34,207 nucleotides of DNA from Comamonadaceae bacterium (GCA_947463025.1 CANHSE010000005.1:1-34207); one strand, 5' to 3'. Positions 2,522-18,926 are shown, counted from the stretch's first letter. A program made the numbers and translations. Notes: generated by a model from the sequence alone, not told the origin.

Positions 2522-3850
2522 TCAGGTCAGGGCCAGACTCAGGAGCGGGAAGGCGCAGACCAGCAGCAGCACGGCGAACATCGCCGCGACAAAAGGCATC
2601 GCCCCAGCAAAGATGCTTTCCACCGACACCTTGGGATCGTTGAGCACCGATTTGACGGTGAACACCGAGATGCCAAAAGGCGGTGTGAGCAAGCCCATTT
2701 CCACCGCCAGCACCGTGATCACGCCAAAGTGAATGAGGTTGAAGCCAAAAGCCTGCGCGATCGGAACGGCTACCGGCGTCATGATCAGCAGGATCGAGCT
2801 GGAGTCGAGGATCATCCCCAGCAGCAAGACGATACCGATGTACAGGGCCAGGAAGCCGTAGGGGCCCAGACCCGCGTCGCGCACCATGTCGGCGATCGCC
2901 ACCGGCACACCCGCCACGCTGAGCATGCGGCTGTAAAAGCCCGCGGCCACCAGCAGGATCAGGATCGTGCACGAGACACTGCCGGTCTCATGGAGCACTC
3001 GCCACAGATTGCCCTGACCCAGCGAGCGGCGGGCCAGTGCGATGAGCAGCGCGCCGGCTGCCCCGACACCACCGGCCTCAGTGGGGGTGAAAAAGCCGCT
3101 GTACAGACCGCCCAGCACCAGCACCACCAGCGCAGCGATGGGGACGAGTTTGGAGGCCATTTGGGAGCCGGTGAGCGTGATCTGCACCCGGCGCTCGCGA
3201 GCCAGCTCGGCCTGGCGCGCCAGGTCGAACACGCGACTCGGCATGAAGCGCGCCATGCACATGATCATCACGGCAAAGACCACAGCCAGAAGCAGGCCCG
3301 GGATCACGCCCGCGACGAACAGCGTGCCGATGGATTGCTCGGCCAGCACACCGTAAATGATCATCAGCAGGCTGGGCGGGATCATCATGCCCAGCACCGA
3401 GCTGCCGGCCACCGTACCCGTGGCAAAGGTGGTTTTGTAACCATGGCTGACCATTTCGGGGACGGCCACCCGGGTGAACACCGCCGCCGAGGCGATCGAC
3501 ACGCCGGTCACGGCGGCGAACACGGTGTTGGCCGCCACGGTGGCCACGCCCAGGCCGCCCTTGAGCTTGCGCAGCAGCACTTCGGCGACCGTGAAAGTGT
3601 CTTTGCCCACGTTGGAGATGCTGACCAGCAGCCCCATGAGCACGAACAGCGGGATGGTGGCGTAGATGTAGTCGGCGATGCCGTTGTAGGCGGCCATGTA
3701 CAGCAGGCGCATGGCCATGTCGACGTTGTCGCGCACCAGCCAGACACCGAAGAAGCCCACAGCCAGCAATGCCACACCGATATGCACGCCTAGCAGCACC
3801 AGCATCACCAGTCCGCCGATGAGCAGACCGCCTAATCCGAGATCGCTCAT
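2522..3850 (-). CDS. TRAP transporter large permease (DctM-type)
   Basis: This is the large membrane subunit of a TRAP transporter, which couples solute import to a sodium gradient. I start it at the ATG at 3850 (MSDLGLGGLLIGGLV), giving 442 residues, close to the family norm; the track's longer 489-residue form reads through the upstream dctQ-type gene. It is almost entirely hydrophobic, with roughly a dozen membrane segments. DctM motifs include the TIPLFVLMG stretch near the N-terminus, SSVLGMMIPPSLLMIIYGV in the middle, FFTPTEAGGVGA and ILDSSSILLIMTPVAVP later. The start overlaps the stop of the small permease gene by 4 bases (ATGA). It is the last gene of the leftward tetR-dctPQM run and converges on lolD. 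Confidence 0.95.
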   Translation of the reverse strand: MSDLGLGGLLIGGLVMLVLLGVHIGVALLAVGFFGVWLVRDNVDMAMRLLYMAAYNGIADYIYATIPLFVLMGLLVSISNVGKDTFTVAEVLLRKLKGGLGVATVAANTVFAAVTGVSIASAAVFTRVAVPEMVSHGYKTTFATGTVAGSSVLGMMIPPSLLMIIYGVLAEQSIGTLFVAGVIPGLLLAVVFAVMIMCMARFMPSRVFDLARQAELARERRVQITLTGSQMASKLVPIAALVVLVLGGLYSGFFTPTEAGGVGAAGALLIALARRSLGQGNLWRVLHETGSVSCTILILLVAAGFYSRMLSVAGVPVAIADMVRDAGLGPYGFLALYIGIVLLLGMILDSSSILLIMTPVAVPIAQAFGFNLIHFGVITVLAVEMGLLTPPFGISVFTVKSVLNDPKVSVESIFAGAMPFVAAMFAVLLLVCAFPLLSLALT

Positions 3851-4428
3851 CGTCCGTCTCCTGTGCCCGCGGCCAGCGGATCTTCTGCCACGGTCTGCTG
3901 CCCGTGCTGGCGCAAGATGCCGGGAATGGACAGCAGGTAGCACAGCGCGGCCGCGAAGGAGCCGGCCACGATCAGTCCGCGAAAGGGCCAAGCGGGGACG
4001 CTGTAGACCCCCTGCACGCCATAAAACTCATTGTTGGCCCACGATTGACGCAGCTCAGGCCAGGCGATCACCGCCAGCGCCGCGAGCAGCGCCGCGCCCA
4101 CCAGGGCGTTGAAGAGGTTCAGCGCGGTGACCGCGCTGGCCGAGCGTTTGCCAATCAGATTGAGCAGGAAATCGCTGCGCGTCATGCGGCCGCTGCACAC
4201 AGCGGCCGCCAGTTGCAGAAAAACGATCGAGGCCACCGAGCGCGCCGAGAACTCAGACACGCCAGTGATCGGCCGGTCTAGAAAGTCCCGGCCGATCACG
4301 TCGGCCACCACCAGGGCCATGATCACGAAGATCCAGACCGTACCGACCGACGCCATCAGGTTGGCCGGCAAGTCCAGGGGATGCCGGGTTGCGGCCGGCG
4401 GGGCGTCGAGGTCGGTGTCGGTGGCCAT
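3847..4428 (-). CDS. TRAP transporter small permease (DctQ-type)
   Basis: This is the small membrane subunit of the TRAP transporter, 193 residues with four predicted membrane helices. The first follows a short polar N-terminus (about residues 25-47, LMASVGTVWIFVIMALVVADVIGR); the ADVIGRDFLDRPITGVSEFS motif is the most typical DctQ signature. Two central helices and a last one near residues 145-165 follow. The C-terminal tail is polar and ends with TGDGR. It lies 9 bases after the binding-protein gene and overlaps the large permease by 4 bases, so the three are one translationally linked unit. DctQ proteins are poorly conserved, so the call leans partly on position. Confidence 0.92.
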   Translation of the reverse strand: MATDTDLDAPPAATRHPLDLPANLMASVGTVWIFVIMALVVADVIGRDFLDRPITGVSEFSARSVASIVFLQLAAAVCSGRMTRSDFLLNLIGKRSASAVTALNLFNALVGAALLAALAVIAWPELRQSWANNEFYGVQGVYSVPAWPFRGLIVAGSFAAALCYLLSIPGILRQHGQQTVAEDPLAAGTGDGR

Positions 4429-4437
4429 GGCGGTGCG

Positions 4438-5508
4438 TCAGCGCGCGGCTTTGTCCCAGTCACGCAGCGGCTTCACGCCGCGTGCGCGCAGTTCGTCAAA
4501 GTAGGCGCGCAGCACGGACTTGCCGGCATCGCCGGTGGTCTGCAGCCAAGGCGTCACGATATCGGGCAGGCCGTTGATCCACTTGGCGCGCTCGGCGGCA
4601 GGCAGCTCGCTCACTTGCAGTCCAGCGGCGCGCATGGTGTCCATGGCCGTCGTCGACATCCGGGTCACGTGCTTGCCGTGCGCCACGGAGGTGGCTTGAC
4701 CGGCCTTCACGAAGGCGTCCTGCACTTCTTTGGGCAGCTTGTCGAAGAAGCTCTTGTTGCTGGCGACGCTGCCGAAGTACATCGCGCCGATGTTCACGCG
4801 CGTGAGGTGCTTGGCCACTTCGTGCACGCGGGCCGGTGCAATGCCGCTGGCAAAGCTCAGCGCGCCCTGGGTCACGCCGGTCTGGATGTTGGTGTAGTAC
4901 ACGGTCAGCGCGCCTTCCACGGGCGTGGCGCCGGTGTCGCGCATCCAGTTGGCCGAGGTGCCCGGCGCGTGGATCTTCTTGTTTTGCAGCGACGCCATGC
5001 TGGTCACGGGGAAGTTCGCATAGATGTCGTAGCTGTCGGTGATCAACGACGACAGCGGCACCATGTTCTGGGCAGTCCAGCTGGCCTTGAGTGCCGGGTG
5101 GTTCGCGTTGAGCTTGTCGAAAATCTCGATCAGCATTTCATGGTTGGTCGTGGCGAACGGGGTGAAGTACGTCACGTTCTGCAGGGGCATGGAGGAGTTC
5201 TCCCAGACCGTGCCGACCATGCCCACGTCCACGATGCCGTCTTTCACCGCCGTACGGGTTTCGTTGAACTTGTACAGCGTGCCGCCGTAGTTCTCGCGCC
5301 AGCGAATCTGGTACTTGTTGCCGCCTTCTTTCAGGAGGCGGTCCACCTCGGGCTGGAACACCTCTTTCATGGCGTTGGCCCAGATGTTGGCCACCGGATG
5401 GCTCGATCCGATGTTGACCGTGATGGCCTGCTGGGCCAGGGCGCCGCTGGCGGCCATGGCGCAACCAAGCGCGAAGAGCCCGGAACGGGCCAACTGGGTG
5501 AGCTTCAT
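4438..5508 (-). CDS. TRAP transporter substrate-binding protein (DctP-type)
   Basis: This is the periplasmic solute receptor of the TRAP system, 356 residues. The start is fixed by a strong AAGGAG site 8 bases before the ATG at 5508 and by a clean signal peptide (MKLTQLARSGLFALGCAMAASGALA). The mature part has the DctP features GSSHPVANIWANAMKEVF, RENYGGTLYKFNETRTAVKDGIVDVGMVG and a later ASNKSFFDKLPKEVQDAF. The conserved Arg that normally sits in the '(L/K)KIR.PG' motif and pairs with the ligand carboxylate is a His here (KKIHAPG, His180). The ligand is therefore uncertain and may not be a simple carboxylate. Position beside a regulator and a molybdenum hydroxylase suggests it imports that enzyme's substrate or a related compound (inference). 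Confidence 0.94.
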   Translation of the reverse strand: MKLTQLARSGLFALGCAMAASGALAQQAITVNIGSSHPVANIWANAMKEVFQPEVDRLLKEGGNKYQIRWRENYGGTLYKFNETRTAVKDGIVDVGMVGTVWENSSMPLQNVTYFTPFATTNHEMLIEIFDKLNANHPALKASWTAQNMVPLSSLITDSYDIYANFPVTSMASLQNKKIHAPGTSANWMRDTGATPVEGALTVYYTNIQTGVTQGALSFASGIAPARVHEVAKHLTRVNIGAMYFGSVASNKSFFDKLPKEVQDAFVKAGQATSVAHGKHVTRMSTTAMDTMRAAGLQVSELPAAERAKWINGLPDIVTPWLQTTGDAGKSVLRAYFDELRARGVKPLRDWDKAAR

Positions 5509-5608
5509 GCGATCTCCTTGCGGGTAAAGGGCGACTGATGGCAGCCGCGTGGGGTTGACGCCACGGCCGGAAGGCCGCAGCAAACGGGAACAGGGTAGGC
5601 AGGTGCGT

Positions 5609-6379
5609 TCATGCGCGACGCATCCTCGGCGTGGCTTGCGCCGCGTCGCCAAACAGGACCCGGCTGGCGACCAGGTAGCCACGCACACGGTCACGCACCA
5701 GAGACTGGCTGATGCGCACCGGCGCGGCGTCGCTGGCCACGCCCTGCGCATAGATCCAGCGGCGCATGGGGATGTAGAAGAAGCCACCATGCAAGCCCAT
5801 GAGCAGTTCGAGCTCGCGCTCGCTGGGCCGCGCGCGGCTGCTGCAGTCGCGAAAGCGCCGCGTCTCGCGCACCAGCCGCGGGAACAGACGCTGGCGCAGC
5901 AGGGAAAAGAAGCGGTCGGTGATGGTGTGGTCGGTCAGGCCGGAGAACACCAGGATGCGAACAAAGTCGCGCGAGAGCGTCGCATTGATGTACTCGTCAT
6001 AAAAGGCGGTGAGCTTGTCCTCGGGCGAGCGATCGCGGTCGTCCAGCAGCGTCTCCCACTCCGGTTGCCAGCGGCCTTCGAACACCTCGATGTAGACCCG
6101 GTCAATCAGGGCCTGCTTGGTCGGGAAGTAGTGATACAGCAGCGCGTGGGTGACGCCGATGCTGCTCGCCAGGTCGCGCAACTGACCGTCCAGGCCTTTT
6201 TCAGAAAAGAAGCGGATGGCTCCGTCCAGGATTTGCCGCTCGCGTTCGGCCACACCCAGACGCCGCCGCGGCGGCGCGATCACGCCAGGCGCCGCGGCGG
6301 GGCCGGGGCGCTTGCGGGGGCGATCAGGGTTTTTCTGGAGGGGCACGCTATTTACCGAATGGTCAACTCTGCCGTACAT
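5609..6379 (-). CDS. TetR-family transcriptional regulator
   Basis: This is a DNA-binding repressor-type protein. The N-terminal helix-turn-helix is plain: ERERQILDGAIRFFSEKGLDG, then LRDLASSIGVTHALLYHYFPTKQALIDRVY. The rest is a helical ligand-binding domain of about 170 residues with no assignable ligand. The start is uncertain. The track begins at a TTG (6400); I use the ATG at 6379 (256 residues), but a GTG at 6346 (245 residues) would leave both candidate operator sites outside the coding region, and no start has a good ribosome site. It is divergent from coxG and lies 100 bases upstream of the TRAP binding-protein gene in the same direction, so it may head a tetR-dctPQM operon. It probably controls both flanking units through the paired sites upstream. 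Confidence 0.9.
   Translation of the reverse strand: MYGRVDHSVNSVPLQKNPDRPRKRPGPAAAPGVIAPPRRRLGVAERERQILDGAIRFFSEKGLDGQLRDLASSIGVTHALLYHYFPTKQALIDRVYIEVFEGRWQPEWETLLDDRDRSPEDKLTAFYDEYINATLSRDFVRILVFSGLTDHTITDRFFSLLRQRLFPRLVRETRRFRDCSSRARPSERELELLMGLHGGFFYIPMRRWIYAQGVASDAAPVRISQSLVRDRVRGYLVASRVLFGDAAQATPRMRRA
6351..6366. promoter_or_regulatory. Candidate TetR operator, site 1
   Basis: TTTACCGAATGGTCAA is a near-perfect palindrome: TTTACC and the reverse complement of GGTCAA (TTGACC) differ at one of six positions around a 4-base spacer. It lies in the divergent tetR-coxG region. It could overlap a -35 element (TTTACC, with TACATT 18 bases further on) of a weak rightward promoter, which would suit repression of the cox-like genes. 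Binding by the neighbouring TetR protein is inferred. Confidence 0.6.
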
Positions 6380-6381
6380 TG

Positions 6382-6397
6382 TTGAACGACTGGTAAA
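6382..6397. promoter_or_regulatory. Candidate TetR operator, site 2
   Basis: TTGAACGACTGGTAAA has the same design as site 1: TTGAAC, a 4-base spacer, then GGTAAA, whose reverse complement TTTACC matches the left arm of site 1 exactly. The two sites are 31 bases apart centre to centre, about three helical turns, so two dimers could bind on the same DNA face. Its own arms match at only four of six positions, so it may be the weaker site. Confidence 0.55.
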
Positions 6398-6432
6398 CAA
6401 AATTCACCCGTGAAAACCCGAAAGACCTTCCG

Positions 6433-7080
6433 ATGCAACTCCATGGCGACGTCCTGATCGGTGCCCCGCGCGCCCGCGTGTGGTCGGCCCTGAACGATCC
6501 CGTGGTGCTGGCCGCCTGCATCCCGGGCTGTGAGGGCGTCGAGGTGGTCAGCCCGGTGGAAAAGACCGCCCGCGTGATGGTCAAGGTGGGCCCGGTGCGG
6601 GCGCGCTTTGCGGGGCGCATCCTGTTGTCTGACATCGTCGAGAACGAACGTTGCGCGATGGGCTTCGAAGGCTCGGGTGGCGCGGCCGGCATGGCCCGTG
6701 GCGAGTCGCAGGTGACGCTGGCCGATGAGGGCCCGGACACTCGGCTGTCCTACACGGTCAAGGCCTCGGTGGCGGGAAAGCTCGGTCAGGTGGGCGGTCG
6801 GATGATCGACGCGGCCGCCAAGCAGATGGCCGACCAGTTCTTCGCCGCCTTCCAGGCGCAGGTGGCGCCGGCTGCGCAAGCGGCTCCGGCGGCCGCAGTC
6901 GAGAGCGGCGCGCCCGCTGTGTCCAACGCACCGGTCGCTGCGCCGGCTCCGCGCCCCACCGCGCAAGGGGCCGCCCCCTTGCCCGAGACGGCACCCTCCA
7001 CCGAGTGGTTGCGCGTGAAGTGGTTTTTCTTGGGCGTCCTCGCCACCGGCGTGGGCGTCTGGATCGGCAGCCGGCTTTGA
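6433..7080 (+). CDS. CoxG-like protein (SRPBCC fold) with C-terminal membrane anchor
   Basis: This 215-residue protein begins like the CoxG/SRPBCC family: MQLHGDVLIGAPRARVWSALNDPVVLAACIPGCEG, with LSYTVKASVAGKLGQVGGRMIDAAAKQMADQFF closing the lipid-binding-type domain near residue 140. An Ala/Pro-rich linker of about 50 residues leads to a single membrane helix at the extreme C-terminus (WFFLGVLATGVGVWIGSRL). In characterised CO dehydrogenases CoxG attaches the enzyme to the membrane and helps electrons reach the quinone pool; the same job is inferred here for the hydroxylase encoded just downstream. It is the first gene of the coxGMSL-like run, with only a weak ribosome site before the ATG. 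Confidence 0.92.
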   Translation: MQLHGDVLIGAPRARVWSALNDPVVLAACIPGCEGVEVVSPVEKTARVMVKVGPVRARFAGRILLSDIVENERCAMGFEGSGGAAGMARGESQVTLADEGPDTRLSYTVKASVAGKLGQVGGRMIDAAAKQMADQFFAAFQAQVAPAAQAAPAAAVESGAPAVSNAPVAAPAPRPTAQGAAPLPETAPSTEWLRVKWFFLGVLATGVGVWIGSRL

Positions 7081-7126
7081 CGGACTGCCCCCTCCTTGTT
7101 TTTCATCTCTGGATGCGGAGCCTGAC

Positions 7127-8002
7127 TTGAAATCTCCCCCTTTTGACTACGCCAAGCCCACCACACTGGCCCAGGTCTTTGACCTGATGCAGACGCATGG
7201 CGACGACGCCTGCATCCTCGCGGGCGGCCAGACGCTCATGGCCACGCTGAACATGCGACTGTCCGAACCGCGCCTGGTGATCGACATCACCGGCCTGGAC
7301 GCGCTGCGCGGCATCCGTGTCGAGGGCGATCGCCTGTACATCGGCGCCCTGGTCACGCACACCGAGATCGAGGACAGCGCCTTGGTAGCCCAGCATGCGC
7401 CGATGCTGCTGCAGGCCGTGCCGCACATTGCGCACCGCGCGATTCGCAACGCGGGCACCTGGGGCGGCTCCATCGCCTACGGCGACCCCGCAGCCGAGTG
7501 GCCTTGCTGCCTGTGTGCGCTGGACGGCACCGTTCACCTGCAAGGCCCGGGCGGCACCCGCCGTGTGGCCGCCACCGATTTCTTCCAAGACCTCTACACC
7601 ACCGCCCGTGCGCCCGACGAGATCGTCATCGGGGCCGATGTGCCTCTGGTGAGTGCCTCCGACTGGTTCGCGTTCGACGAGCTGGCCCGCCGCCATGGCG
7701 ACTACGCCGTGGCCGGCCTGGCCGTGGCCGCGCGCTTTCAGGGCACCCTGGCGCAGCGGGTCACCCTGAGCTTCCTGGGCATCGGCGCGATTCCGGTGCG
7801 CGCGCGCCGCACCGAGGCCCTGCTGGCCGGCAAGACCCTGGACGCCGCCACCATCGGGATCGCGGTGGCCTCGCTCAAGGCCGAACTCGACCCCATCGCC
7901 GATTTGACCCACAGCGCCGAGACCAAGCGCCACCTGGCCACCGTCCTGGCGCGCCGCCTGCTGGAGGCTGCACACGCCAGCCGCAGCGCCATCACCGCCT
8001 GA
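7127..8002 (+). CDS. Molybdenum hydroxylase FAD-binding subunit (CoxM-like)
   Basis: This is the medium, FAD-carrying subunit of a xanthine-oxidase-family enzyme, 291 residues. The FAD motifs sit at the same positions as in CoxM: AGGQT at residues 32-36 (CoxM AGGHS) and TWGG at 111-114 (CoxM TIGG), followed by GDPAAEWP. The protein starts with TTG at 7127: no ATG or GTG is available in frame upstream, the N-terminus (M)KSPPFDYAKP is the normal one for the family, and GCGGAG lies about 8 bases before it. An ATG at 7113 in another frame opens a five-codon ORF whose TGA overlaps the TTG, which could affect translation. The electron path is presumably molybdenum site to CoxS iron-sulfur clusters to this FAD. 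Confidence 0.95.
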   Translation: MKSPPFDYAKPTTLAQVFDLMQTHGDDACILAGGQTLMATLNMRLSEPRLVIDITGLDALRGIRVEGDRLYIGALVTHTEIEDSALVAQHAPMLLQAVPHIAHRAIRNAGTWGGSIAYGDPAAEWPCCLCALDGTVHLQGPGGTRRVAATDFFQDLYTTARAPDEIVIGADVPLVSASDWFAFDELARRHGDYAVAGLAVAARFQGTLAQRVTLSFLGIGAIPVRARRTEALLAGKTLDAATIGIAVASLKAELDPIADLTHSAETKRHLATVLARRLLEAAHASRSAITA

Positions 8003-8019
8003 ACCCACGAGGTACTTTC

Positions 8020-8526
8020 ATGCCAGAACTCCATACCCTTCACGTCGAAGTCAATGGCCGACCGCAGCAGCGCAGCGTGCAGCCGCGCCAGCACCTGGTG
8101 GACTTCGTGCGCAACGAACTCGGGCTCAAGGGCTCGCACCTGGGCTGCGAACACGGCGTCTGCGGCGCCTGCACCGTCGAGGTTGATGGCCGCATCGTAC
8201 GCGGCTGTCTCACGCTGGCGGTTCAGACCCAGGGGTGCAAGGTCCGCACCATCGAGGGCCTGTCCGAGGACGGCGATGTGCGCGATCTGCAGGACGCGTT
8301 CGTCCGTCACAATGCCTTGCAGTGTGGCTTTTGCACCCCCGGCATGGTGATGGCGGCCAAGGAATTGCTGCAAGCCCGCCCCGACGCCTCGCGCGCCGAG
8401 GTGCGTGAGTGGATGAGTGGCAACTACTGCCGCTGCACGGGCTACCACGCCATCGTCGACGCCATCTGCGACACCCTGGCTGAACGCGCTGCCAAAGCGG
8501 GTGGTGCTGCGAAGGTGTCCGCATGA
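8020..8526 (+). CDS. Molybdenum hydroxylase [2Fe-2S] subunit (CoxS-like)
   Basis: This is the small iron-sulfur subunit, 168 residues from the ATG at 8020, which has GAGG just upstream; the 342-residue track version adds an out-of-frame shadow of the preceding gene. The plant-ferredoxin-type cluster is bound by Cys43, 48, 51 and 63 (CEHGVCGAC...GC). The second cluster is bound by Cys102, 105, 137 and 139 (CGFC...CRC). These positions match CoxS almost residue for residue. All eight ligands are present, so the subunit should be functional. The stop overlaps the start of the large-subunit gene (ATGA), indicating coupled translation. Confidence 0.97.
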   Translation: MPELHTLHVEVNGRPQQRSVQPRQHLVDFVRNELGLKGSHLGCEHGVCGACTVEVDGRIVRGCLTLAVQTQGCKVRTIEGLSEDGDVRDLQDAFVRHNALQCGFCTPGMVMAAKELLQARPDASRAEVREWMSGNYCRCTGYHAIVDAICDTLAERAAKAGGAAKVSA

Positions 8527-10985
8527 ACACCGGCACGCTCCACCCCACGCGCTCGGCGGCCATTGAGGCGGGCACCGAGGTCGAAGAACGGCCCGTGGCC
8601 GATCCGACCGACAAGCCTCTGCACGCGATCACCGAAGACCCACGCTACATCGGCAAGAGCGTCGAGCGCCCGAGCGCGCGCAAGCTGGTGCAAGGTCAAG
8701 GCACCTACATCGACGACATCGAGCTACCGCGGATGGCCCACGTGGTGTACTGGCGCAGCCCGGTGGCACATGCCCGCATTCGCCGTATCGACGTCGCCGC
8801 CGCGCGCGCCATGCCGGGCGTGGTGATGGTGGCTGACGGACAGGATCTGGCCAAGATCTGCAAGCCCTGGGTAGCCGTGCTGGGCCACCTGGCCGGCATG
8901 AAATCGGCGCCCCAATACCCGCTGGCCGTGGACCGCGCCTGCTGGCAGGGCGAGCCGGTGGTGGCCATCGTCGCGGACACGCGCGAACAGGCGGAAGACG
9001 CATTGCAGCTGGTGCAAGTGGACCTCGAGGAACTCGAGCCCGTGGTCGACATGGAAACCGCGCTGGACGCCGCCACGCCGCTGATTCATCCCGAGCTGGG
9101 CGACAACCTGTGCTTTTCTCGTAGCCTCGATGTGGGTTCGGTGGACGAGGCCTTTGCGCGCGCCGATGCAGTGGTCGAGACCACCTTTGACTTCGGTCGC
9201 CACACGGGCGTCACGCTAGAACCGCGCTGCCAGATCGCCGACTGGAACCCCGGCGAGCAAAAGCTCACCGTCTACCACTCTTTCCAGGCCCCGCACATGA
9301 TGCAGGACCTGTACGCGCGCCAGTTCGACCTGCCCGAGCATGCGGTGCGCGTGGTGTGCAAGGAAGTGGGCGGCTCCTTCGGCATCAAGGTGCACGCCTA
9401 CCCCGATGACTTTGCGACCGTCGCTTTGTCGATGCTGTGCAAGCGCCCGGTCAAGTTCGTGGCCGATCGCATCGAGAGCTTTACCAGCGACATTCATGCG
9501 CGTCATCACCGCGTCAAGGCCCGTATCGCCGCCAGCAAGAGCGGCGAGATTCTGGCGTTTGACATGGACGACCTCACCGGCATCGGCCCGTATTCGATGT
9601 TCCCGCGCACCAGCGCGATCGAGGGCAACCAGGTGGTCAATCTGGTGGGCGGCCCCTACAAGCACCAGCATTACCGCGCGCGCCTGCAGGTGGTCTTCCA
9701 GAACAAGACACCCACCTGCCAGTACCGTGGCGTGGGGCACCCCATCGCCTGCGCAGTGACCGAGGGCCTGGTCGATCAGGCGGCCCGCGCCATCGGCATG
9801 GACCCGCTGGAGTTTCGCAAGAAGAACGTCATCCCCGACGATGCCTACCCGGCCACTGGCGCCAGCGGCATCAAGCTGGAGGTTCTGTCGCACGAAGCCT
9901 GCTTGCGCAAGATCGAGCAGTTGATGGACTACCCCAAGCTCAAGGCCGAAATCGCGCAGCTGCGTGAGCAAGGCATCTACCGCGGCATCGGCTTTGCGGC
10001 GCTGATCGAGTTGACCAACCCCAGCGCCGCGTTCTATGGCGTGGGCGGTGCGCGCATCGCCTCGCAGGACGGCTGCACCATGCGCCTGGACCCCTCGGGT
10101 GCGATCAGCGTCAGCGTCAGTGTGGGCGAACAGGGCCAGGGCAACGACGGCATCTACCGCCAGATCGCGGCAGATGCCGTGGGCGTGGACCTGGAGAAGG
10201 TGCGCCTGGTGCTCAGTGACACCGACGTTACTCCGTATGGCGGTGGCACCTGGGCCTCGCGTGGGGCCGGTGTGGGCGGCGAAGCGGTGCTGCTGGCGGG
10301 TCAGGCGCTGCGCGCCAATATCCTGCAGGTGGCGGCGGTGATCCTCAAGCGCGACGCCGCCGGCCTGGCCGTGCGCCGTGGCCAGGTGGTCGATGCGGCC
10401 ACCCTGGCGCCTGTACTGGACTTCCCTGAGCTCGGACGCGTGGCTTACTTCCGCTCTGACATGCTGCCCAAGGACTTCACGCCCGAGCTCATGGTCACGC
10501 GCCACTACGCGCAGCGTGACTATCCCTTCATCTTCACCAACGGGGTCCAGGCCTCGTATGTGGAGGTCGACCCGGACACGGGCTTCGTCAAGCTGCTCAA
10601 ACACTGGGCGGTGGAAGACTGCGGCCGCGTGATCAACCCCCAGCTGGTCGACGAGCAGATTCGCGGTGCGATCGTGCAGGGCATTGGCGGCGCGATGCTC
10701 GAGGAGTGCCTCTACGACGAGCGGGGTCTCATGATCAACGCCAGCATGGCCGACTACCTGGTGCCTATGAGCGGCGAGATGCCCGACATCGAAGTGGCCC
10801 ACGTGCAAACGCCCACCCGCAGCAGCCAACTGGGGGCCAAGGGCGCGGGCGAGGCCGGCACAGCCGGCGCGCCGGCGGCGGTGATGAACGCGATCAACGA
10901 TGCGCTCGCACCGCTCGATGCGCAGTGCTGGTCACAGCCACTGACGCCCGAGAAGATTCTTCGCGCACTGGGCCGGGTGGGCTAA
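8523..10985 (+). CDS. Molybdenum hydroxylase large subunit, CO-dehydrogenase-like family, substrate unknown
   Basis: This 820-residue protein is the molybdopterin-binding catalytic subunit. Family marks include the N-terminal RKLVQGQGTYIDDI, GGSFG at about 283-287, GTWASRGAGVGGEAV in the C-terminal half, and KGAGEAG with the probable catalytic base Glu777. The active-site loop reads CQYRGVGHP (residues 399-407). True CO dehydrogenases have CSFR and the common 'form II' proteins have GAGR, so CO oxidation is very unlikely. The enzyme should hydroxylate an organic compound, perhaps a heteroaromatic or aldehyde, using water and passing electrons to the CoxS- and CoxM-like subunits. It has about 40 extra residues before the family's usual N-terminus. 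The gene ends 6 bases from the convergent VWA gene. Confidence 0.95.
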   Translation: MNTGTLHPTRSAAIEAGTEVEERPVADPTDKPLHAITEDPRYIGKSVERPSARKLVQGQGTYIDDIELPRMAHVVYWRSPVAHARIRRIDVAAARAMPGVVMVADGQDLAKICKPWVAVLGHLAGMKSAPQYPLAVDRACWQGEPVVAIVADTREQAEDALQLVQVDLEELEPVVDMETALDAATPLIHPELGDNLCFSRSLDVGSVDEAFARADAVVETTFDFGRHTGVTLEPRCQIADWNPGEQKLTVYHSFQAPHMMQDLYARQFDLPEHAVRVVCKEVGGSFGIKVHAYPDDFATVALSMLCKRPVKFVADRIESFTSDIHARHHRVKARIAASKSGEILAFDMDDLTGIGPYSMFPRTSAIEGNQVVNLVGGPYKHQHYRARLQVVFQNKTPTCQYRGVGHPIACAVTEGLVDQAARAIGMDPLEFRKKNVIPDDAYPATGASGIKLEVLSHEACLRKIEQLMDYPKLKAEIAQLREQGIYRGIGFAALIELTNPSAAFYGVGGARIASQDGCTMRLDPSGAISVSVSVGEQGQGNDGIYRQIAADAVGVDLEKVRLVLSDTDVTPYGGGTWASRGAGVGGEAVLLAGQALRANILQVAAVILKRDAAGLAVRRGQVVDAATLAPVLDFPELGRVAYFRSDMLPKDFTPELMVTRHYAQRDYPFIFTNGVQASYVEVDPDTGFVKLLKHWAVEDCGRVINPQLVDEQIRGAIVQGIGGAMLEECLYDERGLMINASMADYLVPMSGEMPDIEVAHVQTPTRSSQLGAKGAGEAGTAGAPAAVMNAINDALAPLDAQCWSQPLTPEKILRALGRVG

Positions 10986-10991
10986 AGCGCG

Positions 10992-12041
10992 CTAAAGAAT
11001 CCGGTTGAACCACAGCACCGACAGCCCGGCCGACAGCACGGCCAGGGCGGCGGCCAGCAGCGCCAGCAAGCCCGACACCTCGGTCTCTTTTTTCTCGACG
11101 GTCAGGCGCGTGCTCAGGGTCTCGTAGACCTTCTTGAGGTCTTGTGCGGTGCCGGCGTAGAAGTATTCGGCGCCGGTCTTTTGGGCGATCTGTTTGAGCG
11201 TTTCTTCGTCCAGCCGCACGCGCATGGACCAGCCCTCGAAGCCGATGGTCTCGCCATCGACCGTGCCGATGCCCACCGTGTAGACGCGCACCCCGCGTTC
11301 GGCGGCCAGCTTGGTGGCCTCCATCGGATCCACGCCGGTGGTGCGCTGGCCGTCGGTCAGCATGATGATGGCTGCCGAGGTGTACGAGCCGGGCGGAACC
11401 GGGGTGAAGGGTTTTTTCTCTTTCTCTTTCTTCTCAGCGTCGATGGCCATTCCGCGCATGCGGTCGCGGTTGTTTTGCATCAACTGCAGGTCGATGTGGC
11501 CGTCGTCGGGGAATAAGGTGGCCAGCGACATCACGATCGCGTTGCCCGTCGCGGTGCCACGCTGCATCTGGAAGCGATCGATGGCGGTGATCAGGTCTTC
11601 GCGGTTGACGGTGGCCAGTTGCGCGACCTGGGCCGAGCCGGCGAAAGCCACGATGCCGACCTTGACGTCACGCGGCAGGTCGCCCAAAAAAGCTTTGGCC
11701 GCATTCTGGGCGGCTACCAGCCGATTGGGCTGAACGTCGGTGGCCCGCATGCTGCCCGAGACGTCCATGGCCAGGATGATGGTCTGCTGCGTCGAGGGCA
11801 GGGTGATGGTGGCCACCGGGCGCGCGGCGGCCAGCAGCATGGCCGCCAGGGCCAGCAGAAACAGCACCGGCGGGATGTGACGGCGCAGGCCGGGCCCGCG
11901 CCCCAGCGCCTCTTTCACGATCGCCAGCGACGCATAGCGCACCGCCAGCTTCTTCTTGCGTCGAAGCAGGAGTAGGTACAGCAGCACCAGCAGCGGCAGC
12001 AGCAGCAGGAGCCAGAGTTGTTGGGGCCAGAGAAAGTGCAT
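10992..12041 (-). CDS. Membrane-anchored VWA-domain protein (BatA-like)
   Basis: This 349-residue protein has two N-terminal membrane helices (about 7-27 and 58-74), a von Willebrand A domain and a C-terminal helix (about 326-347). The metal-ion site begins with DVSGS at 93-97 and continues with a TATGNAI threonine and TDGQRTTG, so the site looks intact. An inserted charged stretch (AEKKEKEKKPFTPVPPGS) interrupts the domain before the TDG motif. In MoxR operons such proteins work with the AAA+ ATPase in envelope or metalloenzyme maturation, but the specific role here is unknown. It is the last gene of the leftward protease-moxR-DUF58-VWA operon, 18 bases after the DUF58 gene. Confidence 0.93.
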   Translation of the reverse strand: MHFLWPQQLWLLLLLPLLVLLYLLLLRRKKKLAVRYASLAIVKEALGRGPGLRRHIPPVLFLLALAAMLLAAARPVATITLPSTQQTIILAMDVSGSMRATDVQPNRLVAAQNAAKAFLGDLPRDVKVGIVAFAGSAQVAQLATVNREDLITAIDRFQMQRGTATGNAIVMSLATLFPDDGHIDLQLMQNNRDRMRGMAIDAEKKEKEKKPFTPVPPGSYTSAAIIMLTDGQRTTGVDPMEATKLAAERGVRVYTVGIGTVDGETIGFEGWSMRVRLDEETLKQIAQKTGAEYFYAGTAQDLKKVYETLSTRLTVEKKETEVSGLLALLAAALAVLSAGLSVLWFNRIL

Positions 12042-12059
12042 GGCAAGCAGGGCGGGCCT

Positions 12060-13037
12060 TTAGGCTGCCCGTTTCAGGTGGGTCGGGAGGCTGCCGGAGG
12101 AAAGACGGCTGCGGCGCTTGCGTAGTTCGACAAAGCGCACCAGGGCATCGACCAGATCGTCGTCGGTGACGAGTTCGAGCGTGTCCACGCCAGCGCGCGC
12201 CAGGCCTTCGCGCAGTTGCGTCTCACCCTGCGCAGCCAGGCGCGCAAAGCGCTCGCGAAAGCCTGCATCGTGCGTGTCCACCAGTAACTGCTCGCCGCTC
12301 TCGGCATCGCGCAGCGTCAGCAGCCCCAGATCGGGCAGCGTCTGCTCCATCGGATCGAGCACGCGCACAGCCACCACCTCGTGGCGCTGCGCCAGCCGCG
12401 CCAGGGCCTGCTCCCAGCCAGGTTCGCTGATGAAATCCGAGACGACAAACAGCGTGGAGCGCCGCTTGATCACGCCCGCCGCCGCATCCAAAAGGTCACG
12501 CAGGCGTGTCGTGCCGGTGTTGGCAGGGGGCGGGCGATGCGCGAGGCTGTGCAATAGGTGCAGCACATGCCGGCGGCCATTGCCGGTGGGAATGACGGTA
12601 TCGACCCCCGCGCCATAGAGCAGCGCGCCAACCCGATTGCCATGGCGCGTGAGCAGGCGCGCCAGCACGGTGGTGAAGTCGGTGGCGAGATCGCGCTTGC
12701 GTCGCTCGCGCGAGCCGAAATCGATCGAGGGGCTCAGGTCCACCAGGAACCAGGCGGCCATCTCGCGGTCTTCGGTGAACACGCGCACATGCGGTGTGCC
12801 GTGGCGTGCGGTGACGTTCCAGTCGATGTGGCGCACATCGTCGTGGTGCTGGTACTCGCGCAGATCGGCCAGGTCCATGCCGTGCCCGCGCATCAGGGTG
12901 CGGTAGTCGCCTTGCAAGAGGCCATCGAGCCGGCGAATGGTCGTCCACTCCAGGCGCCGCAGCGTCTGTTCGGCCTCACCCGGACGGGGCGCGGCCTGGC
13001 GCTTGCCCGGGCTCGAATCAGGCGGCGAGCTTGTCAT
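12060..13037 (-). CDS. DUF58 domain protein
   Basis: This is a 325-residue soluble protein with the DUF58 core DLADLREYQHHDDVRHIDWN at about residues 55-74, followed by VTARHGTPHVRVFTEDRE. Next comes a VWA-like segment with an apparent metal-ion motif, DLSPS at 100-104. It has no membrane helix and no signal peptide. DUF58 proteins nearly always accompany MoxR ATPases and VWA proteins and are thought to act with them; no biochemical activity is established for the family as far as I know. The start at 13037 lies inside the end of moxR (20-base overlap), which indicates tight translational coupling. Confidence 0.93.
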   Translation of the reverse strand: MTSSPPDSSPGKRQAAPRPGEAEQTLRRLEWTTIRRLDGLLQGDYRTLMRGHGMDLADLREYQHHDDVRHIDWNVTARHGTPHVRVFTEDREMAAWFLVDLSPSIDFGSRERRKRDLATDFTTVLARLLTRHGNRVGALLYGAGVDTVIPTGNGRRHVLHLLHSLAHRPPPANTGTTRLRDLLDAAAGVIKRRSTLFVVSDFISEPGWEQALARLAQRHEVVAVRVLDPMEQTLPDLGLLTLRDAESGEQLLVDTHDAGFRERFARLAAQGETQLREGLARAGVDTLELVTDDDLVDALVRFVELRKRRSRLSSGSLPTHLKRAA

Positions 13038-14028
13038 GTTCGAGTGGACGCGGCGGTGCAGGGATCTTGGCCATGATCTGGCCGATCAGGGCGTCGGCGT
13101 CCAGGCCCTCGGACAGCGCCTCATAGGACAGCACCAGCCGGTGACGCAGCACGTCGGCCACCAGATCGGTCATGTCCTCGGGCAGGGCGTAGCTACGACC
13201 GCGCATCAGCGCCAGCGCCCGCGCGCCCTCGGTGAGGTTGATGGTGGCGCGGGGGCTGGCGCCAAAGGTGATGAAGCGGGCGAGATCGGCCAGGCCATGG
13301 CGCGCCGGATCGCGCGTGGCCGATACCAGTTTGACCGCGTATTGCACCAGCGAGGGATCGACATACACGCCGCGGCATTCGCGTTGCAGGGCCGCCAGTT
13401 GCTCGGTGGTCGCTACCGCCGAGACCGTGACCGCAGGCCCCGTGACCCGCTCGACGATCACGTATTCCTCTTCGTCGGTCGGATAGTCGACCAGCACCTT
13501 CATCATGAAGCGATCGACCTGGGCCTCAGGCAGCGGGTAGGTGCCCTCGGTCTCGATCGGGTTTTGGGTGGCCATGACCAGAAAGGGATTGGGCACGCGG
13601 TGGGTCTCGCCGGCGATGGTGACCTGGCGCTCCTGCATCACCTCCAGCAGCGCGCTTTGCACCTTGGCCGGCGCGCGGTTGATCTCGTCGGCGAGCAAGA
13701 GGTTGGTGAACACCGGGCCGAGCGTGGTGCCGAAGTCGCCGGTGCGCTGGTTGTAGATGCGCGTGCCCACCAGGTCGGCGGGCACGAGATCGGGCGTGAA
13801 CTGGATGCGTTTGAACTGCCCGCGCACCGTGCCCGCCAGCGTCTTGACCGTGAGGGTCTTGGCCAGGCCCGGTACGCCCTCGACCAGCAGGTGACCCTGG
13901 GCCAGTATGGCCACCATCACCCGTTCGAGAAAGCGGTCCTGGCCCACAACGACGCGTTTGACCTCATAGAGGATCTGCTCCATCAGCTTGGCGGTGGCGG
14001 GATCGGGGGTGGACAGGTGGGGGGTCAT
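13018..14028 (-). CDS. moxR: MoxR-family AAA+ ATPase
   Basis: This 336-residue ATPase has Walker A GVPGLAKT at residues 51-58, Walker B LLADE at 111-115 followed by INRAPAKVQSALLEVMQERQVT, the sensor-type stretch FLVMATQNPIE and the EAQVDRF arginine region, all typical of MoxR. MoxR proteins act as chaperone-like ATPases, assembling or activating partner complexes with VWA proteins. In cox clusters CoxD is a related ATPase, but here the gene belongs to a separate leftward operon that converges on the coxL-like gene, so a link to the hydroxylase is possible but unproven. It lies 33 bases after the protease gene. Confidence 0.95.
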   Translation of the reverse strand: MTPHLSTPDPATAKLMEQILYEVKRVVVGQDRFLERVMVAILAQGHLLVEGVPGLAKTLTVKTLAGTVRGQFKRIQFTPDLVPADLVGTRIYNQRTGDFGTTLGPVFTNLLLADEINRAPAKVQSALLEVMQERQVTIAGETHRVPNPFLVMATQNPIETEGTYPLPEAQVDRFMMKVLVDYPTDEEEYVIVERVTGPAVTVSAVATTEQLAALQRECRGVYVDPSLVQYAVKLVSATRDPARHGLADLARFITFGASPRATINLTEGARALALMRGRSYALPEDMTDLVADVLRHRLVLSYEALSEGLDADALIGQIMAKIPAPPRPLEHDKLAA

Positions 14029-16907: not shown

Positions 16908-17396
16908 GTGAAAATCAAAAGCGAGCGGAATTTTTATTCCGGGCTCATGTTCCTGATCATTGGTAGCGCCTTCGCATGGGGTGCCACCAAGTACACCGTG
17001 GGCCAAGCCGCCCGCATGGGGCCCGGCTACTTCCCCTTGATGCTGGGGATCGTGCTGGCCATTTTGGGCGCAATCGTCCTGTTTGACTCCCTGGTCGTCG
17101 AGACCGAAGACGGTGAGAAGGTGGGCAAGATCGCCTGGCGCCCGCTGTGCTTCATCGTCGGCGCCAACCTGGTCTTCGGCTTTCTGCTCGGGGGTGTGCC
17201 TGCCCTGGGTATTCCGGCCATGGGCCTGATCGTCGCCACGTACGGCGTGGTGCTGGTGGCCGCCCAGGCCGGCGACCAGTTCCGGATCAAGGAGGTCCTG
17301 ATCGTGGCCACTATCCTCGCGGCACTCAGCTACGTGGCCTTCATCAAGATCCTCAAGCTGCAATTTCCCGTCTGGCCTTCCTTCATCGTCGGCTAA
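16908..17396 (+). CDS. tctB: Tripartite tricarboxylate transporter small subunit TctB
   Basis: This is the small membrane subunit of a TTT-type transporter, 162 residues with about four membrane helices. The N-terminus is typical (ERNFYSGLMFLIIGSAFAWGA), followed by GQAARMGPGYFPLMLGIVLAILG, the strongest TctB signature. The start codon is GTG at 16908 with GGAG 8 bases before it. It lies 107 bases after the spermidine-synthase-like gene; that gap has short GGGT/ACCC-type inverted repeats but no T-run, and must contain the tctBA promoter, which I cannot place. It is followed by tctA after 15 bases. No binding protein (TctC) gene is present in the window. Confidence 0.94.
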   Translation: MKIKSERNFYSGLMFLIIGSAFAWGATKYTVGQAARMGPGYFPLMLGIVLAILGAIVLFDSLVVETEDGEKVGKIAWRPLCFIVGANLVFGFLLGGVPALGIPAMGLIVATYGVVLVAAQAGDQFRIKEVLIVATILAALSYVAFIKILKLQFPVWPSFIVG

Positions 17397-17411
17397 AGGC
17401 GCTGTCACATC

Positions 17412-18926
17412 ATGGACCTGATTAACAATCTCTCGATCGGTTTCGCCGCCGCTTTCACGCTGCAGAACCTGGCCTATGCCTTCGTCGGCTGCCTACTGGG
17501 CACCCTGATCGGCGTGCTCCCGGGCATTGGCCCGGTCGCCACCATTGCCATGCTGCTGCCCGCCACCTACGCGCTGCCCCCGCTGGCGGCGCTGATCATG
17601 CTGGCTGGCATCTACTACGGCGCTCAGTACGGGGGGTCGACGACCGCCATCTTGGTGAACCTGCCGGGTGAATCGTCCTCGGTGGTGACCACCATCGATG
17701 GCTACCAGATGGCGCGCGCGGGCCGCGCCGGTCCTGCGTTGGCCGCGGCGGGCCTGGGCTCGTTCTTCGCGGGCTGTATTGGCACCCTGATCCTGGCCGC
17801 TTTCGCCGCGCCCTTGACCGAGGTCGCCTTCAAGTTCGGTCCTGCCGAATACTTCTCGCTCATGATCCTGGGCCTGGTCGGCGCCGTGGTGCTGGCCTCG
17901 GGCTCGCTGGTCAAGGCGGTCGCGATGATCGTGCTGGGCCTGCTTCTGGGCATCGTGGGCACCGACGTCAACTCGGGTGTTGCGCGTTTTTCGTTCGACA
18001 TCCCCGAGCTGACCGACGGCATCGGCTTCATCGTGGTCGCCATGGGCGTGTTCGGCTATGGCGAGATCATCATGAATCTCTCCAAATCGGAAGACGACCG
18101 GGAAGTGTTCACCGCCAAGGTGCAGGGCTTGTTCCCCACCGCCGAAGATTTCAAACGCATGGTGCCTGCCGTCCTGCGCGGCACGACGATCGGCTCTGTC
18201 CTGGGCATCCTGCCCGGCGGCGGTGCGCTGCTGGCCGCCTTTGCCGCCTACACCATCGAGAAGAAGATCAAGCTCAAGCAGGGTGAGGTCACCTTCGGCA
18301 AAGGCAACATTCGCGGTGTGGCTGGCCCTGAGGCCGCCAACAACGCGGGCGCCCAGACCTCTTTCATCCCGCTGCTGACGCTGGGCATTCCGCCCAACGC
18401 GGTGATGGCGTTGATGGTGGGTGCGATGACCATCCACAACATCCAGCCGGGCCCGCAGGTCATGACCAGCAACCCGCAGCTGTTTTGGGGCCTGATCGTC
18501 TCGATGTGGCTCGGCAACCTGATGCTGATCGTCCTGAACCTGCCGCTGATTGGCATGTGGATCAAGCTGCTCACCATCCCCTACCGCTGGTTGTTCCCCG
18601 CCATCGTGTTGTTCTGCGCGATCGGTGTGTACTCGACGAACAACAACACCTTCGACATTCGAATGGTGGCCTTGTTCGGCGTCATCGGCTATGTGTTCCT
18701 CAAGCTCGGCTGCGAGCCCGCGCCGTTGCTTCTGGGCTTCATCCTGGGCCCGATGATGGAAGAAAACCTGCGACGCGCGCTGCTGCTTTCGCGTGGCGAC
18801 TGGAGCGTGTTCGTCACCCGCCCGCTGTCCGCCAGCTTGCTGGCCGCTGCGGTGCTGCTGCTCGTGATCGTGCTGCTGCCCTCGATCCGCAGAAAACGTC
18901 AGGACGTCTTCCAGGAAGAAGCCTGA
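17412..18926 (+). CDS. tctA: Tripartite tricarboxylate transporter large permease TctA
   Basis: This is the large membrane subunit of the TTT transporter, 504 residues, a normal length. The two repeated half-motifs are clear: GVLPGIGP at 34-41 with GGSTTAILVNLPGE at 74-87, and later GILPGGGALLAAFAAYTIEKK with FIPLLTLGIPPNAVMALMVGA. About ten or more membrane segments are evident. TctA/B move carboxylates such as citrate using an ion gradient and depend on a separate periplasmic TctC receptor, which must be encoded elsewhere. The gene is followed 20 bases later by a clear intrinsic terminator, so the tctBA unit ends here. Confidence 0.96.
   Translation: MDLINNLSIGFAAAFTLQNLAYAFVGCLLGTLIGVLPGIGPVATIAMLLPATYALPPLAALIMLAGIYYGAQYGGSTTAILVNLPGESSSVVTTIDGYQMARAGRAGPALAAAGLGSFFAGCIGTLILAAFAAPLTEVAFKFGPAEYFSLMILGLVGAVVLASGSLVKAVAMIVLGLLLGIVGTDVNSGVARFSFDIPELTDGIGFIVVAMGVFGYGEIIMNLSKSEDDREVFTAKVQGLFPTAEDFKRMVPAVLRGTTIGSVLGILPGGGALLAAFAAYTIEKKIKLKQGEVTFGKGNIRGVAGPEAANNAGAQTSFIPLLTLGIPPNAVMALMVGAMTIHNIQPGPQVMTSNPQLFWGLIVSMWLGNLMLIVLNLPLIGMWIKLLTIPYRWLFPAIVLFCAIGVYSTNNNTFDIRMVALFGVIGYVFLKLGCEPAPLLLGFILGPMMEENLRRALLLSRGDWSVFVTRPLSASLLAAAVLLLVIVLLPSIRRKRQDVFQEEA

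Follow-up and report, generated by a model that had tools for sequence, protein, structure and literature searches.

We analysed a 34,207-nt contig of a Comamonadaceae bacterium (hereafter the window), which belongs to a 2.59-Mb draft genome, and examined the module at positions 2522–10985, where a tripartite ATP-independent periplasmic (TRAP) importer, a TetR regulator and a molybdenum hydroxylase are encoded together. Eight genes were confirmed: tetR-dctPQM run leftward and coxGMSL run rightward, diverging from a single short gap. An earlier note on this DNA had described this divergent layout, with two related palindromes between the two arms, and was correct for all eight genes in both order and orientation. 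The features, in window coordinates, are as follows.

2522–3850, minus strand: dctM, TRAP large permease (Pfam DctM, 274 bits; NCBIfam TIGR00786 above cut-off; ATG at 3850)
3847–4428, minus strand: dctQ, TRAP small permease (Pfam DctQ, 52 bits)
4438–5508, minus strand: dctP, TRAP solute-binding protein with a signal peptide (Pfam DctP, 91 bits; KKIH instead of KKIR; orthologues 71–89% identical)
5609–6346, minus strand: tetR, regulator (Pfam TetR_N, 48 bits; GTG start preferred from operator placement, the open frame extending to TTG at 6400)
6351–6366: operator 1, palindrome TTTACCGAATGGTCAA
6382–6397: operator 2, palindrome TTGAACGACTGGTAAA, 31 bp from operator 1
6433–7080, plus strand: coxG-like SRPBCC protein (Pfam COXG, 101 bits; PDB 8uds and 2pcs; C-terminal hydrophobic helix at about residues 193–213)
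7127–8002, plus strand: coxM-like FAD subunit (Pfam FAD_binding_5, CO_deh_flav_C)
8020–8526, plus strand: coxS-like [2Fe-2S] subunit (Pfam Fer2, Fer2_2; no twin-arginine signal seen)
8523–10985, plus strand: coxL-like molybdopterin subunit (Pfam MoCoBD_1/2, Ald_Xan_dh_C; QYRGVGHP loop; catalytic Glu in KGAGEAGT; best PDB match 1t3q)

The coxL start overlaps the coxS stop. The listed tetR start, TTG at 6400, would enclose both palindromes within the gene. GTG at 6346 is the likelier start, because both palindromes then fall in an 86-bp intergenic gap before coxG (6433).

Conservation was surveyed in 251 genomes of the family, counting CoxL relatives at E ≤ 1e-150. Such relatives occurred in 23 genomes, all but one with at least 65% identity, and DctP/TRAP orthologues of at least 76% identity occurred in only six. 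Five of these six have the TRAP genes beside tetR-coxGMSL; in the sixth (G243), the contigs that carry the two are short and broken. The check proposed in the earlier note, whether the TRAP and cox-like genes lie apart in most relatives, thus gave an asymmetric answer: TRAP goes with cox in these five genomes, whereas coxGMSL often occurs without TRAP and has an ATP-binding cassette (ABC) importer instead. A wider scan, covering genomes of 84,980 species, yielded 80 named loci. Combining these with the family loci and the window, and removing duplicates, gave the window and 91 other distinct loci, which were typed as 33 TRAP-type, 47 ABC-type, and 12 cut or other; none carried both importers. 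The typed loci were chosen by CoxL similarity and are therefore uninformative on how often TRAP occurs without cox, which rests on the DctP scans. TRAP-type loci include those of Limnohabitans and Hydrogenophaga, and ABC-type loci those of Ramlibacter, Curvibacter, and Polynucleobacter. The ABC block comprises a VOC protein, for which no PDB match was found, a 2,6-dihydroxypyridine-hydroxylase-like flavoprotein, a branched-chain-type binding protein, two permeases, and ATPases. The tetR-coxGMSL set is a real conserved unit that exists in two mutually exclusive importer versions.

The pairing of TRAP with the enzyme was also found outside the family. Roseobacter plasmids of Dinoroseobacter shibae and Loktanella have the order tetR, then coxMSL-dctPQM, with identities to the window of 67–69% for DctP, 65% for DctM, and 61–62% for CoxL; therefore, the TRAP-cox linkage survives a change of class and gene order. 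More distant loci of Leisingera and Roseivivax likewise pair TRAP with coxMSL genes. The linkage supports the earlier proposal of a self-contained uptake-and-oxidation unit with one local regulator; induction by its own substrate is a further step that we infer.

Several individual loci were recorded alongside this survey. One Hydrogenophaga genome (JAUCZG01) carries two TRAP-type cassette copies (L118 and L130). A stray copy of the VOC-flavoprotein pair known from the ABC-type block lies on a separate contig of a TRAP-type genome (G116; L161:7762–9404), about 6 kb from a related TetR gene. The window genome itself contains a second coxMSL set (L162, on contig C178), whose CoxL is 53% identical to that of the window, and no importer lies on that short contig. 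A record titled Akkermansia muciniphila (L078) carries the cassette at Limnohabitans-like identity; its title is probably wrong or the bin mixed.

The history of the TRAP-type version was examined with two trees. In the CoxL tree, the favoured arrangement has two TRAP clades (2 changes), and a single TRAP clade is not rejected (p = 0.14). In the TetR tree, the proteins of the TRAP-type loci form one clade (support 98), and the CoxL grouping is rejected (p = 0.0002, for a grouping chosen after seeing the tree). An independent second gain of TRAP was dropped on these two results. Exchange of a tetR-importer block between enzyme backgrounds is possible.

The importer genes dctP, dctQ, and dctM are encoded together, with a signal peptide on the P component, as in the DctP-type TRAP transporters SiaPQM and TeaABC, and all three products score above the Pfam cut-offs. 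In contrast to those transporters, the window-type DctP has His or Asn replacing the conserved carboxylate-binding arginine (Arg-147 of SiaP). The window protein has His, and the alignment of the 33 distinct orthologues gives His in 13 and Asn in 20. Both Roseobacter proteins (D. shibae and Loktanella) also lack the arginine, and it is kept in all seven DctP paralogues examined from the window genome. According to Fischer et al., the arginine is present in 97–98% of DctP proteins and selects for carboxylates, and about 3% lack it (PMC4646407). Judged by this residue, the window TRAP is a homologous system outside the carboxylate-selective majority. The DctP ligand is probably uncharged, since the carboxylate-selecting arginine is replaced in every orthologue; this loss, which the earlier note had not anticipated, argues against an organic acid as the solute. 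Among more remote proteins, the Leisingera TRAP protein near a molybdenum hydroxylase has Gly at this position, and that of Roseivivax keeps Arg. Distant DctP homologues, at about 40% identity, that have Ser or Thr at this site are encoded next to an intradiol ring-cleavage dioxygenase and an iron-containing dehydrogenase, which we read as the maleylacetate-reductase type; these neighbours would fit import of neutral aromatics. The AlphaFold model of DctP was unusable (mean predicted local distance difference test score 46).

The enzyme shows the architecture of the xanthine oxidase family, with FAD, two [2Fe-2S] domains, and a molybdopterin subunit with the catalytic Glu. The QYRGVGHP loop is present in all 35 TRAP and 52 ABC CoxL rows, and the catalytic Glu motif in nearly all of them. 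The best PDB match of CoxL is quinoline 2-oxidoreductase (1t3q; E = 3e-132 over 777 residues). With this enzyme and other N-heterocycle hydroxylases of the family it shares the YRGVG loop and the catalytic Glu, whereas it is distant from them overall and comes with its own importer and CoxG. The PDB matches did not discriminate between substrates, as quinoline oxidoreductase and carbon monoxide (CO) dehydrogenase score too alike. The form I CO dehydrogenase of Mycobacterium smegmatis (8uem, 8uds) has the same subunit plan, M-S-L plus CoxG. The window enzyme differs from it in lacking the AYXCSFR loop with its copper-binding cysteine and in being linked to a solute importer; a CO dehydrogenase identity was rejected because CoxL has QYRGVGHP at this site. 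From these motifs, CoxMSL is a molybdenum hydroxylase and not a CO dehydrogenase, and the loop bears out the earlier note, which had not tied the enzyme to CO. The enzyme subunits showed no export signal. CoxMSL is presumably cytoplasmic, and its substrate would therefore first have to be taken up into the cell. Elsewhere in the window genome there is an XdhC maturation gene, and genes recognised by eye as XdhC-like and molybdenum-cofactor-transferase-like lie near three Hydrogenophaga loci.

The window CoxG combines a COXG domain with a C-terminal membrane helix and matches the solved mycobacterial CoxG (8uds, E = 6.5e-9). The helix is present in all 33 TRAP-type loci and is consistent with membrane contact. 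CoxG is described as more than an anchor by Kropp et al. 2025, as cited in PMC13240472. By analogy, the role of a quinone shuttle would suit CoxG better than that of an anchor alone, and the earlier suggestion that it merely attaches the enzyme to the membrane finds no support in that form.

The two palindromes upstream of tetR are spaced 31 bp centre to centre. The consensus TTKACCN4GGTMAA (at most one mismatch) occurs three times in the window, compared with 0.08 expected. A site pair lies between tetR and the cox genes in all 33 TRAP-type loci, with a spacing of 31 bp in 32 and 29 bp in one, and in 37 of the 43 ABC-type loci with a readable region; across both versions the spacing is mostly exactly 31 bp, or three helix turns. 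When each locus region was compared with 50 shuffles, none of the shuffles matched the real scores. The lone exact site was not enriched genome-wide, with counts at control level in 16 genomes. The signal is thus the operator pair and not the single site. As expected of a TetR-type local repressor, the protein carries a TetR_N domain and conserved palindromes lie in the promoter region of its gene. The regulator looks local, and this conclusion stops at the cassette because the single site is not rare in genomes. A search with TetR returned generic TetR matches only, and a scan for sigma-70 promoters found none.

Genes beside homologous enzymes were examined as a guide to the substrate class. 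In the ABC-type loci, the flavoprotein best matches 2,6-dihydroxypyridine hydroxylase (E = 1e-40; next match 1.5e-15). Plasmids of Methylobacterium oryzae and M. radiotolerans carry a homologous tetR-coxMSL-ABC-coxG set beside uraH and uraD (hydroxyisourate hydrolase and OHCU decarboxylase), a racemase, an NCS1 nucleobase symporter, and the same kind of flavoprotein. Bradyrhizobium-like homologues, from large alphaproteobacterial genomes, lie with allantoinase-PuuE-like, luciferase-type monooxygenase, and flavin reductase genes. At one locus (L121), coxGMSL without tetR or TRAP lies downstream of caprolactamase-like subunits in the same direction, with a class III aminotransferase also there. 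A histidine-utilisation operon adjoins one further enzyme copy (L198). The first four kinds of neighbour point to ring-nitrogen compounds, and all would fit oxidation of the carbon beside a ring nitrogen followed by ring opening. The range offered by the earlier note, aldehydes, N-heterocycles or CO, is narrowed to N-heterocycles by gene context alone. The ABC version resembles the nicotine pyridine pathway of Arthrobacter (ketone dehydrogenase, 2,6-dihydroxypyridine hydroxylase) in pairing a molybdenum hydroxylase with a 2vou-like flavoprotein, but it has another importer and regulator, and the flavoprotein is not part of the TRAP version.

Taken together, we consider, with moderate confidence, that the module is inducible and that it imports and oxidises a small nitrogen heterocycle, probably an uncharged one. 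TetR, bound to the two operators, would hold down both divergent transcripts, as the conserved sites suggest, and the substrate or its first product may release it. DctP would capture the periplasmic substrate in a pocket without the usual arginine, and DctQM would import it using an ion gradient, as is known for the family. In the cytoplasm, CoxMSL is predicted from the gene context to hydroxylate the ring carbon adjoining the nitrogen. Electrons may pass from molybdenum through the two [2Fe-2S] clusters and FAD to a quinone presented by membrane-tethered CoxG, by analogy with the mycobacterial protein. The genes for later steps would lie in other parts of the genome. Sister lineages combine this regulator and enzyme with the branched-chain-type ABC importer, the dihydroxypyridine-hydroxylase-like flavoprotein, and the VOC protein.

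Several points weigh against this reading. Loss of the arginine permits a neutral ligand and does not prove it. The context genes differ by lineage (pyridine-, purine-, and lactam-like), agree on no single molecule, and are all missing from the TRAP version. Five of the six TRAP-type genomes lack the dihydroxypyridine-hydroxylase-like gene, and outside the eight genes of the cassette no neighbour is conserved in the TRAP-type version; its substrate could therefore differ from that of the ABC version. The top NCBIfam model for CoxL is a glyceraldehyde dehydrogenase, at 518 of a 790-bit cut-off, which keeps an aldehyde substrate in play.

A narrower form of the heterocycle proposal, whose confidence overlaps with it, takes the substrate to be a purine or methylxanthine; CoxMSL would then act on C-8 as a quinone-linked dehydrogenase, in the manner of caffeine dehydrogenase, and the pathway would be completed by housekeeping urate enzymes. 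We regard this as unlikely. The caffeine dehydrogenase of Pseudomonas sp. CBB1 (cdhABC-tmuMHD) is heterotrimeric and quinone-dependent, with a flavin monooxygenase and urate-type enzymes acting after it (PMC4408171). Purine alkaloids are neutral, and the Methylobacterium sets, with their uraH, uraD, NCS1 symporter, and flavoprotein genes, recall this cluster. The window module differs from it in having a TRAP importer and CoxG, and was likened to it by description and not by CdhA sequence; none of tmuM, tmuH, and tmuD lies next to the module, and comparable genes adjoin the Methylobacterium homologues. The window genome has uraH and uraD, but so do about 83% of the family genomes, so their presence is uninformative as a marker. 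Furthermore, Curvibacter delicatus has an ABC cassette and neither uraH nor uraD, and the flavoprotein is closer to dihydroxypyridine hydroxylase than to HpxO.

The two importer versions might also serve different substrates, which would make the ABC loci uninformative on the TRAP version. The flavoprotein and VOC genes vanish along with the ABC importer, and the TRAP-version TetR proteins form their own clade. However, the window CoxL shares 82–86% identity with those of the nearest ABC loci and has an identical active-site loop, and the operator pair is common to both versions; we judge a difference in substrate to be rather improbable.

We give still less credence to an importer for a carboxylate beside a CoxMSL that oxidises an aldehyde. 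Carboxylates are the usual TRAP cargo, the curated NCBIfam models that come closest describe glyceraldehyde dehydrogenase subunits, and two TRAP-type loci have a gene for an aldehyde dehydrogenase downstream. Against this, the arginine filter is lost in all 33 distinct orthologues, the NCBIfam scores are far below their cut-offs, and the neighbours in relatives are ring-modifying or amide-hydrolysing genes. That CoxMSL is a form II CO dehydrogenase supplementing energy, with unrelated TRAP genes merely sharing its promoter region, is very improbable: CoxG and the gene order resemble cox clusters, and form II activity is given as unresolved in PMC13240472, but the QYRGVGHP loop is neither (A/S)YRCS(F/L)R nor even AYRGAGR, and CO needs no importer, yet an importer is linked across two classes and replaced by a second importer type.

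The module is flanked by genes of other kinds. At 559–2494, a lolC-like permease and a lolD-like ATPase of a lipoprotein release system (assigned by eye) converge on dctM, ending 28 bp away. VWA-domain, DUF58-like, and MoxR-like genes at 10992–14028, on the minus strand toward coxL, resemble a Bat-type operon; they are probably not CoxD/CoxE partners, because they were not found with coxGMSL in other loci. Further along (16908–18926) lie TctB- and TctA-like genes of a tripartite tricarboxylate transporter, also assigned by eye.

The cassette consists of known parts in a new combination, and what is new is the TRAP-hydroxylase pairing and the arginine loss; a search of the open-licence literature for TRAP together with molybdenum hydroxylase found nothing describing this gene set. 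More broadly, and tentatively, at a little below an even chance, a TRAP branch without the arginine-carboxylate clamp may carry neutral N-heterocycles, in one regulated unit with a quinone-linked molybdenum hydroxylase and swappable with an ABC importer behind one shared operator pair. Organic acids are the recognised cargo of TRAP importers. Since enzyme and importer should act on a common substrate, the arginine-less branch, which occurs with one enzyme wherever this could be checked, opens the question of its own cargo to direct testing. The cassette genes of Limnohabitans, Hydrogenophaga, Polynucleobacter, and the Roseobacters are labelled as xanthine or CO dehydrogenase, and a corrected label alters the metabolism inferred for these organisms. 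The cassette is spread through many freshwater and soil bacteria and, if the proposal is true, would give those of freshwater a widespread route for dissolved organic nitrogen that is as yet uncharacterised.

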